From assembly GCF_038632915.1 (NCBI RefSeq), contig NZ_CP152050.1, forward strand, positions 1,891,001 through 1,955,000: a stretch of DNA of 64,000 nucleotides, given 5' to 3'. Below, piece after piece: positions 30,746-33,865 of the stretch. A program made the position numbers and the translations under genes. Each line of letters begins with the position of its first letter. The first letter of the stretch is position 1. The notes under the pieces are model-generated. The model saw nothing but the letters and a program-made list of their open reading frames with translations. It did not search any database and was not told the DNA's origin. The DNA comes from Paenisporosarcina sp. FSL H8-0542 (GTDB taxonomy: Bacteria > Bacillota > Bacilli > Bacillales_A > Planococcaceae).

Positions 30746-31732
30746 CTACATGTCCGATTCGCTAGACCATCCATCTTTTACTTTTTGTTTTGCCAGTTGT
30801 TCTAATTCTTTATATTCCTCTATTTCATCATCATGAAGGATCTTGGAGTTCCAGTTGAACTCCCCATCGTCAGATAGTATTCCGGTATAGGTAGCAAAAA
30901 ACGTTGCATTTCCTATCAGTGAAAGCTGCGAAGAAGTATCGCTTTGTTCAATCGCACACTTAACAAATCCTCCTGGATTATAGACCGTTGTTTCCCCATA
31001 AGGAACGAGTTTAATTGTGGCAGCTACTAAAGCAGAAGCTGTCATGGCTGTTCCACAAGCATTTGTAAATCCTACACCACGTTCATAAGTCCGCACAAAA
31101 ATACTAGTATCATCTACTGGGTGAACAAAGCTTACATTTACACCATCAGGGAAAAAGATATTTTCTCTATTAAATGATGCAGCAAGTTGTTCTTGAAAAT
31201 GGGTATCTTCAATATACTGAATAGGAACTATACCTATTAAGTGAGGATTCGGAACCGACACTGCGGTAAAGTGAATATCGGAAGAAAACTCGGGCATTAT
31301 CTCATTGATGATTTGATGGCTATTTTTATAGATCATTGGTAGTGAAGACAGCTCAAATGATACCGGTGAAATTTCTACTGAATATGTATCTATACTGTTG
31401 AAAATAGAATCTACTTTTCGTACAGTCAAGTCTGCTTTCATTGTTTCTATTGTTGCAGTCTGTTTACCAGTCTTGTTTAATACAAATCTCGCCACACATC
31501 TTAATCCATTGCCACACATGGATGCTTCTGAACCATCCGCATTATAGACGCGCATTCTCGCATCCACACGGGTCGATGGCGAAATAATCAATAAACCGTC
31601 CGCTCCATTTTCTTTTGAAGGATCGCACATCTTCTGTGCAGTTAAGGTCCAATTGTATGTTGTGTTTTCTACTTCTTCATGTAAATAGAACGTATTGCCT
31701 GAACCGTGGACTTTATGAAATATTAAGGTCAT
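30746..31732 (-). CDS. dapF: Diaminopimelate epimerase
   Basis: Converts LL- to meso-diaminopimelate for lysine and peptidoglycan synthesis, PLP-independent with two catalytic Cys. Seen: FHKVHGSGNTF (5-15), NADGSEASMCGNGLRCVARF (first Cys, about 73), and RGVGFTNACGTAMTASAL (second Cys, about 226). At 328 residues it is longer than the usual 270-285, with an acidic C-terminal extension (DEIEEYKELEQLAKQ). CTGGAGGG precedes the ATG. Unusually, the next gene on the transcript is a diguanylate cyclase. Confidence 0.95.
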   Translation of the reverse strand: MTLIFHKVHGSGNTFYLHEEVENTTYNWTLTAQKMCDPSKENGADGLLIISPSTRVDARMRVYNADGSEASMCGNGLRCVARFVLNKTGKQTATIETMKADLTVRKVDSIFNSIDTYSVEISPVSFELSSLPMIYKNSHQIINEIMPEFSSDIHFTAVSVPNPHLIGIVPIQYIEDTHFQEQLAASFNRENIFFPDGVNVSFVHPVDDTSIFVRTYERGVGFTNACGTAMTASALVAATIKLVPYGETTVYNPGGFVKCAIEQSDTSSQLSLIGNATFFATYTGILSDDGEFNWNSKILHDDEIEEYKELEQLAKQKVKDGWSSESDM

Positions 31733-31790: not shown

Positions 31791-31856
31791 CTATTCGTTC
31801 AAATTAAAGGCATAATCTTGTAACAAAACTTACACATTTTTAACGTATTTTTTTCT

Positions 31857-31884
31857 TTGCATTTTGAAAAAAAATTAGTATAGT
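31857..31884 (+). promoter_or_regulatory. Sigma-A promoter of the structured leader / GNAT gene
   Basis: TTGCAT (31857-31862), 16-bp spacer, TATAGT (31879-31884). It implies transcription from about 31891, leaving a leader of about 200 nt. Confidence 0.5.
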
Positions 31885-31890
31885 AAGAAT

Positions 31891-32089
31891 GCAAACAAAC
31901 AATTTCATAAAGCGATTTTATTCACCATAAATCGTGAGGGAAGGCAAATGGTGCGCCACCAGCAAATATGACTGGTTCTAGTGGGTTCGATTCCCACCCC
32001 GAAATTTTTTATGCAACACAAAATGAAAAATTTCGAGGGGTTAGAACCAGACATCTGTCTTGATCTACCCTGGTACGGAGGCGTTAATT
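31891..32089 (+). ncRNA. Structured 5' leader RNA of unknown class (riboswitch candidate)
   Basis: A 199-nt leader before the GNAT gene. Elements in order: hairpin CGATTT/AAATCG (31913-31934); GGTG-CGC-CACC (31950-31960); closing stem CTGGTTCTA (31972-31980) with TAGAACCAG (32042-32050), 9 bp perfect and extended by TAT/ATA-like pairs past an A-A mismatch; inside it a hairpin GTGGG-TTCGATT-CCCAC (31981-31997) whose loop follows the tRNA T-loop consensus, and an arm CCCGAAATTTTT / AAAAATTTC...GGG (31998-32040) with a GAG bulge. ACCAG at 31958-31962 can instead pair with CTGGT at 31972-31976, so two folds exclude each other. I recognise no known riboswitch or T-box motif, and no terminator is seen. 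Confidence 0.6.
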
Positions 32090-32644
32090 ATGATTAAACG
32101 ACGAGAATTACACGAATGCACTACTTTATTCGAGTATTTATCACACCCATCTGTCTTCCCTTTTGTTCGTCACAAAGCGACTTCTGCTGATGAATTTATG
32201 TTCATGACGAAACAGATAATGGAAGAAGAAGAGCGTGGAGAAGTAATTTCACGCACAATTACTGACGATTACGGAATGCCAATTGGGACCATTAATTTAT
32301 ATGATATTCAAGATCATGCAGGTTTTCTTGGGACATGGATTGGTCACCCTTTCCAAGGAAAAGGTTTTAATCAAAAAGCAAAAAACTTATTTTTGGAAGA
32401 GCTGTTTTATCAGCACAATATCAATACCGTATTCCTACGGATTAAAAAGCATAACGAAAAATCCATTCGTGCTGCTGAAAAATTGCCTTACACGATGAAT
32501 GCAAAAGAAAGTCACCCTGCTTTATTGGAAGAAATCAATGCAGGTGCACATCAATATGAGTTATATCAAATCCCTAAAGATTTATTCTACATGGCAACGG
32601 CTGCTTCTAGGTTCACTGGAGAAGAAGAAGAACAAGCGATGTAA
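32090..32644 (+). CDS. GNAT family N-acetyltransferase (RimJ/RimL-like)
   Basis: A 184-residue acetyl-CoA-dependent acyltransferase. The fold is marked by TITDDYGMPIGTINLYDI (strands 2-4), the acetyl-CoA loop GTWIGHPFQGKGFNQKAKNLF (Q/R-x-x-G-x-G form is HPFQGKGFNQ, about 86-95), and VFLRIKKHNEKSIRAAEKL (about 119-137, the N-x-x-S-x-x-x-x-E-K helix). The substrate is not predictable. GGAGG lies 8 nt ahead of the ATG at 32090; the longer frame upstream overlaps the structured leader and is not a gene. Single-gene transcript behind that leader. Confidence 0.85.
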   Translation: MIKRRELHECTTLFEYLSHPSVFPFVRHKATSADEFMFMTKQIMEEEERGEVISRTITDDYGMPIGTINLYDIQDHAGFLGTWIGHPFQGKGFNQKAKNLFLEELFYQHNINTVFLRIKKHNEKSIRAAEKLPYTMNAKESHPALLEEINAGAHQYELYQIPKDLFYMATAASRFTGEEEEQAM

Positions 32645-32748: not shown

Positions 32749-32790
32749 AAATACCGTCCACACACGTTTATGGTGTATGGACGGTATTTT
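32749..32790. terminator. Bidirectional terminator between the GNAT gene and murG
   Basis: AAATACCGTCCACAC / GTGTATGGACGGTATTTT, a long near-perfect stem with a 7-10 nt loop and A/T flanks on both sides. Confidence 0.9.
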
Positions 32791-33865
32791 ATTTTGCGTA
32801 TGAAGTAATAAGACTGACCATTTCATTCGGCGTTTTTGGAAATTCTGAACTTTCCATTACTTGTTGGATATGTTCTGTGCGTTCTTTAACATCTTCCAAC
32901 GCAGCCATAAATGATGCTGGGGTTACTTCTTCTTCTTCAATTACAGATGCCCACCCATGTTTCTTAAATATCTGGGCATTTAAAAGTTGATCTCCACGAC
33001 TTTGTAGTTTTGTTAATGGGATTAACAACATCGGTTTGCGCAAGGCTAAAAATTCAAAAATGGAATTTGACCCTGCTCGGGAGATAATAATATTAGCGGC
33101 ATGCAACAAATCAGGCAATTCGTGTGTCACATATTCAAATTGTTTATACCCTCTTATGTTGTTTAATGATTCATCCAATTTGCCTTTTCCACACAAGTGA
33201 ATGACATCATATTTTTTAAGCAACTTAGGAAGATTACTTCGAATGGCATCATTCACTACTGCTGAGCCTTGACTCCCACCCATAATGAGGAGAACGGGTT
33301 TAAAGCCTTCAAAACCACACAGACGCATTCCCGTTTCTTTTCTCCCTTCAAACAATTCCGAGCGAATAATGGAGCCAGAACAACTGGACTTTTCTGATGG
33401 TAAGTGCTTTAACGTTTCCTGGAAGACTGTAAAAATATGATGGGCAAATGGCATCGCGATTTTATTTGCCAGTCCTGGAGTTACGTCAGATTCGTGAATT
33501 ACAACTGGAATGTTAGCTATTTTACCTGCCATTACGACAGGAACGGATACAAATCCACCTTTTGAGAAAATTACGGAAGGTTTTACTTTTTTTAATATGA
33601 ATAAAGCTTCCAGTAATCCTTTCATGACTCTTAGTGGATCCGTGAAGTTTTTGACGGAGGCATAACGTCTTAATTTGCCACTTGAAATGGCATGATACGT
33701 AATATGAGGAAAAGCATCGCGAATCAATTCCAATTCAATGCCATCTTTGGAACCGATGTAATGTATTTCAAATGATTGCTCTTCTAATGTCGGGATAATT
33801 GCCTGGTTCAATGAAACATGACCAGCAGTTCCCCCTCCTGTTAATACAATGGTTTTTTTCTTCAT
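32789..33865 (-). CDS. murG: UDP-N-acetylglucosamine--lipid I GlcNAc transferase
   Basis: Peripheral membrane GT28 glycosyltransferase that makes lipid II for peptidoglycan. At 358 residues it is full length: VLTGGGTAGHVSLNQAIIP (8-26, lipid I site), IFSKGGFVSVPVVMAGKI and VIHESDVTPGLANKIA (about 123-138), GGSQGSAVVNDAIR (about 191), and the UDP-GlcNAc site SRAGSNSIFEFLALRKPMLLIP (split: SRAGSNSIFEF and RKPMLLIP, about 263-285). It stands alone, away from any mur/division cluster, as in staphylococci. TAGGAGC precedes the ATG. Confidence 0.94.
   Translation of the reverse strand: MKKKTIVLTGGGTAGHVSLNQAIIPTLEEQSFEIHYIGSKDGIELELIRDAFPHITYHAISSGKLRRYASVKNFTDPLRVMKGLLEALFILKKVKPSVIFSKGGFVSVPVVMAGKIANIPVVIHESDVTPGLANKIAMPFAHHIFTVFQETLKHLPSEKSSCSGSIIRSELFEGRKETGMRLCGFEGFKPVLLIMGGSQGSAVVNDAIRSNLPKLLKKYDVIHLCGKGKLDESLNNIRGYKQFEYVTHELPDLLHAANIIISRAGSNSIFEFLALRKPMLLIPLTKLQSRGDQLLNAQIFKKHGWASVIEEEEVTPASFMAALEDVKERTEHIQQVMESSEFPKTPNEMVSLITSYAK

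Follow-up and report, generated by a model that had tools for sequence, protein, structure and literature searches.

A conserved leader RNA with a predicted tRNA-like fold before an acetyltransferase gene of Paenisporosarcina and its relatives

The window analysed here, a 64-kb stretch of the chromosome of Paenisporosarcina sp. FSL H8-0542, carries a gene for a GNAT acetyltransferase of 184 amino acids (32090 to 32644, with its start ATG at 32090; PF13302, Pfam 59.2 bits). An earlier note, made from the letters of the window, had described the nucleotides before this gene as a structured RNA with competing folds. This locus raises the question of whether the leader is a genuine RNA element, which of its folds has been conserved, and how it might act on the gene that follows. 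All leader features are given in window coordinates and lie on the plus strand.

A conserved leader before one acetyltransferase gene

The 201-nt leader is predicted to fold better than 200 of 200 shuffled versions (z -2.98), and its sense strand contains no intrinsic terminator. A consensus scan placed a promoter-like site at 31856 to 31884 (TTTGCA-17-TATAGT, 9 of 12 consensus matches). The region is not enriched in sites of this kind relative to shuffles (11 versus 9.7). The -10 region of this one is conserved in an alignment of nine leaders, which does not in itself speak for function. Read from the sequence, an upstream hairpin termed P0 (CGATTTTA..TAAATCG, 31913 to 31934) is visible in some relatives only and was left out of the pair counts. 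Every element that the earlier note had listed is present at, or a few bases from, the place where it had been put. The D-arm, a short upstream reading frame (uORF), a hairpin before the Shine-Dalgarno sequence and a possible Shine-Dalgarno switch come in addition to these.

The leader occurs as one copy in its own genome and was matched in 9 of 9 genomes of the genus, the named relatives being Paenisporosarcina. Since its core is also nearly invariant in nine aligned leaders from two genera, it is more than a chance arrangement. The same leader stands before the same GNAT gene in Mesobacillus zeae and, again before that gene, on a Cytobacillus spongiae plasmid record, the single plasmid match. 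A covariance model built from nine sequences (R1) matched 49 of 261 genomes of the host family and 35 of 398 sampled genomes of the class. Both counts include one genome (G254) in which the match was a tRNA-Gly gene only, which leaves leaders in at least 48 and 34 genomes, respectively; these are lower bounds, as searches over more than 40 genomes ran under stricter filters. Of the five matches in 329 genomes sampled from the phylum, one was a tRNA-His gene and four were leaders that the class sample had already yielded. When 76 matches were examined, two proved to be tRNA-Gly genes and 74 were followed by an orthologous GNAT gene (45-100% identity), so that all 74 leader copies agree with the earlier description of a structured cis-acting leader of this gene. 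The part common to all genera spans approximately 31938 to 32039.

Several sets are used below. The leader of L023, from the same species as the window, was excluded from the counts. L095 is the one of 75 leaders that is absent from the 74-row tables, its D-loop falling outside the parsing pattern. Sets of 72 loci lack L065 and L075, which are identical to others, and the set of 69 loci lacks L085-L087 as well. Alignment A5 holds 66 of the 74 rows, near-duplicates having been removed by hand, and a second covariance model (R2) was built from 66 leaders without tRNAs.

Searches of Rfam 15 at gathering scores gave no match in the window and, in eight relatives, only S414 in L085, far from the leader. 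At E<=10 the window gave six matches far below their cut-offs, including one at 15.5 bits to YrlA, a tRNA-like RNA. At the same threshold all matches in L017 and L064 likewise stayed below their cut-offs; they included tmRNA over the L017 T-arm (12.8 bits) and tRNA-Sec in L064 (18.9 bits, cut-off 47). The Rfam check thus upholds the earlier statement that the leader fits no known family. A search of open-licence papers found no description of it, and the portions available of two surveys of new bacterial RNAs (PMC8632094, PMC11109978) contain nothing resembling it. The leader is a genuine conserved RNA element, uncatalogued in Rfam. Phage sequences gave no match, and viral spread was discarded as an idea: the one pattern match on a viral contig (L094) falls across a long ORF, with none of the element's other parts present.

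A GNAT orthologue was found at E<=1e-20 in 138 of the 261 family genomes, of which 48 have the leader and 90 gave no leader match. Orthologues without the cloverleaf carry another leader ('class II'; L105-L108, L110, L113, L114, L116, L119, L125-L129, L132, L133, L138, L140 and L143-L145) that shares a block around AACGTCTAGTTCTTTTAGG, which looks complementary to AAAAGGAGGCGTT at the Shine-Dalgarno. Class II leaders from 13 loci had no Rfam match at E<=0.5, and 14 such leaders, roughly aligned, have almost no fold in common (consensus -1.2 kcal/mol). We rejected class II leaders as homologues, since R2, run at E<=5 on 19 GNAT loci that lack a class I leader, matched none of them. The L142 locus (G032) keeps GAAGGCAAATTGGTACACC with no R1 or R2 match; its leader looks decayed, and L142 and L085-L087 are decayed-looking leaders of one genus.

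The gene neighbours examined differ between clades. In the window, a gene for a DapF-type epimerase (30746 to 31732) precedes the leader, and a gene for a MurG-like glycosyltransferase (GT28; 32789 to 33865, opposite strand) follows the GNAT gene; the former was found in 32 loci, and homologues of the latter in 51 fetched loci, some without this leader. Known RNAs also occur near some GNAT loci: S414, a Staphylococcus sRNA family, in L085 (2676-2849, plus strand, 48.9 bits, cut-off 45) and, below that cut-off, in L125 (920-1094, minus strand, 40.8 bits), and Bacillaceae-1 RNA (RF01690) directly after the GNAT gene in L114 (2165-2227, minus strand, 38 bits, cut-off 35).

Cloverleaf fold and likeness to tRNA

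Comparison of the aligned leaders indicates that the conserved fold is a tRNA-like cloverleaf. The three-way junction that the earlier note had taken for the core did not hold as such and appears to be a competing state of this genus. In the cloverleaf, GGG at 31938 to 31940 (segment 1) and CCC at 31998 to 32000 (segment 2b) form the 5' and 3' strands of a 3-bp 'acceptor' (A5 pairs 5-68, 6-67 and 7-66). They enclose a D-arm-like hairpin at 31943 to 31957 (GGC AAATGGTGC GCC, with GG in its loop), an anticodon-arm-like hairpin at 31958 to 31976 and a T-arm at 31981 to 31997 (GTGGG-TTCGATT-CCCAC, loop consensus TTCRATT). The anticodon-type helix pairs ACCAG (31958-31962) with CTGGT (31972-31976). 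This pairing had been noticed before as an alternative that would undo the closing stem; the pairing stands and its role as an alternative falls, since the helix belongs to the conserved cloverleaf itself. The linkers run as in tRNA (2/1/5/0: acceptor-2-D-arm-1-anticodon arm-5-T-arm-0-acceptor). Beyond the cloverleaf lies a long arm (GAAATTTTT..AAAAATTTC, 32001 to 32035), in which CGAAATTTTT (32000-32009) pairs with AAAAATTTCG (32026-32035), together with two outer C-G pairs past a bulged A.

Over the 66 rows of A5, 98.8% of the cells of the cloverleaf and long arm are paired (acceptor 97.0%, D-arm 99.5%, T-arm 100%, long arm 98.3%). Eight of 25 pairs have changed on both sides (38 cells), a number reached by 0 of 500 shuffles and by no slid version (at most three pairs), although with this statistic kinship among sequences alone can beat shuffles without structure. 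The two-sided changes are confined to the anticodon-type stem (two pairs), the T-stem (two) and the long arm (four); the acceptor and the D-arm have none. The loops were parsed with a pattern that required their letters: within it the T-loop reads TTCGATT in 73 and TTCAATT in one of 74 leaders, which bears out the canonical T-loop that had been recognised at the outset, and the D-loop has GG in 74 of 74. The D-loop of L095 (AAAGGTG) lies outside the pattern yet keeps the GG. The acceptor/D-arm junction consists of AA only in all 74 parsed leaders, and the anticodon-type loop varies from 3 to 10 bases between 4-bp stems. A rival hairpin, TGGTG/CACCA, spanning the D-loop and anticodon arm, fits 66 of 66 A5 rows and is a possible alternative there.

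The Rfam tRNA model (RF00005) has 70 matches in the host's own genome, none of them at the leader, and no tRNA match was seen in the window at E<=10. Models built from leaders only do find tRNA genes. When R2 was run on nine stretches of the same genome chosen as tRNA-bearing, 23 of 23 matches at E<=0.1 fell on tRNA genes, on the sense strand, and all five of its weak matches in the class sample were tRNA-Gly genes. This result and the cloverleaf itself support the tRNA-related theme of the earlier note. In plain alignment, the best tRNA of the genome was tRNA-Cys (score 31, reached by 3 of 300 shuffles). Mimicry of tRNA-Gly in particular, suggested by the weak R1 and R2 matches, was dropped, since tRNA-Asn of the same genome scores higher (26.5 versus 22.3 bits) and plain alignment favours tRNA-Cys. 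The leader shares with tRNA (RF00005) its cloverleaf connections, the T-loop and the GG of the D-loop. Unlike tRNA, it has an acceptor of 3 bp rather than 7, an A at position 8, no CCA, and an anticodon loop that varies in length instead of keeping to seven bases. tRNA-like operators are known before synthetase genes such as thrS, and few bacterial mRNA leaders contain tRNA-like control elements. An mRNA leader so like a tRNA that leader-only models recover tRNA genes would offer a second, independent case for testing whether tRNA folds act as cis sensors.

Predicted strand exchange before the gene

The fold that competes with the cloverleaf is built on a strand downstream of it. As had been read from the window before, CTGGTTCTA at 31972 to 31980 is perfectly complementary to TAGAACCAG at 32042 to 32050. 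The first of these (segment 2a) comprises the 3' half of the anticodon arm and the variable loop and is the anti-cloverleaf target in this genus; the second belongs to segment 3, the putative anti-cloverleaf strand (GAGGGGTTAGAACCAG, 32035 to 32050), which is complementary to segment 2 and has segment 4 (TCTACCC, 32064 to 32070) as its alternative partner. This 9-bp stem is preserved within the genus alone: seven genus rows keep 8-9 of its nine pairs, while G002 retains 4 and Mesobacillus 3. The covariation that the earlier note proposed as a check is present in the cloverleaf and long arm, whereas the stem itself shows a single two-sided change, in the row of a metagenome-assembled genome (MAG).

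We compared segment 3 with its possible targets across 72 loci, which are related and so not independent. Its complementarity to the anticodon-arm 3' half plus variable loop lay beyond that of 95% of its shuffles in 22 of 72 loci, and to the T-arm 3' strand plus CCC (GGGTGGG with CCCACCC) in 25 of 72, compared with 5 and 4 of 72 for control parts of the cloverleaf. Because both targets stand out against the controls, the anti-cloverleaf role of segment 3 seems to be kept while its target differs between clades. These exclusive complementarities are in keeping with the two mutually exclusive folds postulated earlier, here as a model.

The alternative hairpin, predicted between segments 3 and 4, stops just short of segment 5, the Shine-Dalgarno sequence of the GNAT gene (GGAGG, 32077 to 32081). 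With segment 3 present, the mean predicted probability that the Shine-Dalgarno is unpaired was 0.72 versus 0.37 in shuffles (higher in 66 of 72 loci). With segment 3 absent it fell to 0.26 (lower in 71 of 72), which is hardly more hidden than the 0.30 of shuffles (below their own shuffles in 51 of 72). The window's own leader hides its Shine-Dalgarno poorly without segment 3 (0.58 versus 0.28 in shuffles). We also forced both folds on 69 loci. Mean energies were -48.7 kcal/mol for the ON fold and -55.9 kcal/mol for the OFF fold, so that by secondary structure alone ON is 7.2 kcal/mol less stable; 3.1 of 5 Shine-Dalgarno bases were free in ON versus 1.3 of 5 in OFF, and the sequence was freer in the ON fold in 53 loci, equally free in 13 and less free in 3. 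Secondary structure thus favours OFF at rest, and ON requires the assumption that an effector, or tertiary contacts, hold the cloverleaf; this is the logic of an ON switch.

Conservation, covariation, tRNA-like architecture, exclusive complementarities and a predicted difference in Shine-Dalgarno exposure were obtained by computation. On the model that we build on them, the ribosome-binding site of the gene is probably shown or hidden according to which fold forms. Five alternating segments would take part: GGG (1), the cloverleaf 3' strands plus CCC (2), GAGGGG.. (3), ..TCTACCC or CTGCCCTC (4) and the Shine-Dalgarno (5). As long as the cloverleaf is held, segment 3 would pair with segment 4 before the Shine-Dalgarno, leaving it open, and the acetyltransferase would be made. 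Once the cloverleaf opens, segment 3 would invade its 3' strands, and segment 4, thus freed, could fold onto the Shine-Dalgarno (OFF). We infer that both folds are used in cells, and that the cloverleaf is held by an effector in the way that the yjdF riboswitch is held by its ligands. The likeliest effector would be a small molecule or drug in whose handling the acetyltransferase takes part. That the leader acts in cis as a translational ON switch, with a tRNA-like cloverleaf as its basis and yjdF as its analogue, is a proposal for which we put the chances at even. It would point to an unrecognised response around an uncharacterised acetyltransferase.

The micro-ORF, other explanations and known systems

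The cloverleaf also contains a short reading frame (31948 to 31971; ATG GTG CGC CAC CAG CAA ATA TGA, MVRHQQI). Among the 74 parsed leaders, for which the pattern required [AT]TG GTG, the start in the D-loop is ATG in 71 and TTG in 3, followed by GTG in 74, CGC or CGT in 73 (AGC in 1) and CAC in 74. M/L-V-R-H is thus found in 73 of 74. In L095, outside the pattern, AAG replaces the ATG; the GTG, itself a possible start, is kept. Of 51 distinct arms, 19 have an in-frame stop within the variable loop, compared with 5 for each of the other two frames (shuffles 8.5 +- 2.1; 0 of 2000 reach 19). Weighted by 27 genera, of which Mesobacillus may coincide with another counted genus, the stop fractions are 0.349 versus 0.031 and 0.071 (shuffles 0.116 +- 0.047; 0 of 2000). 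In three of 74 leaders (L039, L063 and L083) the frame runs into the GNAT gene without a stop, and an N-terminally extended protein is possible.

The same data bear on a different explanation, a leader-peptide attenuator in which the ribosome that translates MVRHQ is the only sensor and the cloverleaf a mere resting shape of the competing strands. A stall in the first codons, under drug or translation stress, would cover segment 2a, segment 3 would pair with segment 4, and the acetyltransferase would be made. A conserved short reading frame, as a uORF attenuator would have, was found: its start codon in the D-loop, its shared first codons and its frame-specific stops, unmatched by shuffles also after genus weighting, all speak for this explanation, as does the precedent of toiL in the accessible part of PMC12121999. 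However, pairing with the anti-Shine-Dalgarno upstream of the uORF shows no excess over shuffles (-7.2 versus -7.6; -10.8 for the GNAT gene), the T-loop is conserved though the frame beyond codon 5 is not, the frame extends past the start of the T-arm in 19 of 74 leaders, and L095 has AAG at the place of the ATG. We consider this explanation doubtful, if the strongest of the alternatives.

In the proposed ON switch, the uORF may add a second input or do all the sensing itself, with toiL as described in the excerpts of PMC12121999 as the model; a ribosome that pauses within the cloverleaf, on the micro-ORF, would cover segment 2 and thereby also open the gene. The D-loop holds the start of the micro-ORF and the anticodon loop often holds its stop codon. 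One short sequence could then serve as both cloverleaf and micro-ORF; ribosome entry and the folded cloverleaf would exclude each other, and together they would open the acetyltransferase gene on sensing a drug or the state of translation. That this is a new class of tRNA-mimicking mRNA switch we suggest only tentatively, though a little less doubtfully than the attenuator.

The fixed association with one gene, and the ability of some GNAT enzymes to act on aminoacyl-tRNAs (as given in published extracts), would also fit autoregulation, in which translation would change once the acetyltransferase itself, or some other tRNA-binding protein, is bound to the tRNA-like leader. This we think improbable, because in our searches the protein is far from the GNAT toxins that act on aminoacyl-tRNAs, and because the predicted logic is ON when the cloverleaf is held. 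The protein falls below the cut-offs of the five NCBIfam models it touches, and its single-sequence structure matches are weak, the best being RimJ, MccE and SpeG types. A model from 8 sequences had a mean pLDDT of 61.7, a 20-sequence profile gave no match to solved chains at E<=1e-8, and PADLOC gave no match. Marginally less probable still is a structured 5' end that sets only mRNA stability or basal translation without switching. The greater stability of OFF-type folds would agree with it, as would L085-L087, in which the cloverleaf arms persist although the switch and the GGG of segment 1 are gone, but a segment 3 whose role is kept while its target differs between clades argues against it. 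A relic of a tRNA gene or mobile element, for which the tRNA-like arms and single genomic copy might be cited, is very improbable given the near-invariant core, the compensatory changes over many genera, the one gene partner, the lack of any phage match and a single plasmid match that itself stands before a GNAT gene.

Among known systems, Guanidine-IV variant leaders also occur before GNAT genes, and we set them aside as a different element, which the sections available of PMC9788692 describe as two hairpins with a pseudoknot plus a terminator.

T-boxes are likewise tRNA-related leaders with exclusive folds, and AGGGTGG, a heptamer that we take to resemble a T-box sequence, stands in segment 3 of 26 of 74 leaders (for example L017 and L064), where pairing with CCCACCC accounts for it. 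In 26 of 26 cases, however, it is not followed by ACCGCG, and the leader imitates a tRNA rather than presenting a specifier for one. At E<=10 the Rfam T-box model matched neither the window nor L017 or L064, and at gathering scores it matched none of eight relatives.

The toiL uORF lies, like the micro-ORF, in a leader, that of E. coli topAI-yjhQ, where a structure hides the ribosome-binding site and stalled ribosomes relieve it (PMC12121999, in part). Sequence and host are unrelated, and the portion of that paper available describes no tRNA-like fold.

The closest analogue found is the yjdF (azaaromatic) riboswitch (RF01764), of which the leader is not a member: up to E 10 that model finds nothing in the window, in L017 or in L064, and in the host's own genome it matched only another place (E 4.7). 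The yjdF ligand pocket is an extended purine-rich junction, J1/2 (PMC9142559, available sections), unlike the AA at the acceptor/D-arm junction here. The leader further differs in its canonical T-arm, in an anti-element that would reach the Shine-Dalgarno through a relay hairpin, and in its micro-ORF. According to the parts available of the two yjdF papers, SAXS and mutants point to a tRNA-like fold (PMC9142559), the crystal structure supports a relay to the ribosome-binding site, with two loops that make no direct contact, the natural ligand is not known (PMC10987639), and acetyltransferases are mentioned among the controlled genes (PMC9142559, PMC10987639). Both RNAs, as far as these excerpts allow a comparison, are leaders before a gene with a cloverleaf-like four-way arrangement, a GG loop and a T-loop-type fold. 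yjdF is described there as a translational ON switch that exchanges a tRNA-like arm with pairing at the ribosome-binding site (PMC9142559, PMC10987639), and the folds predicted for the present leader agree with it in kind.
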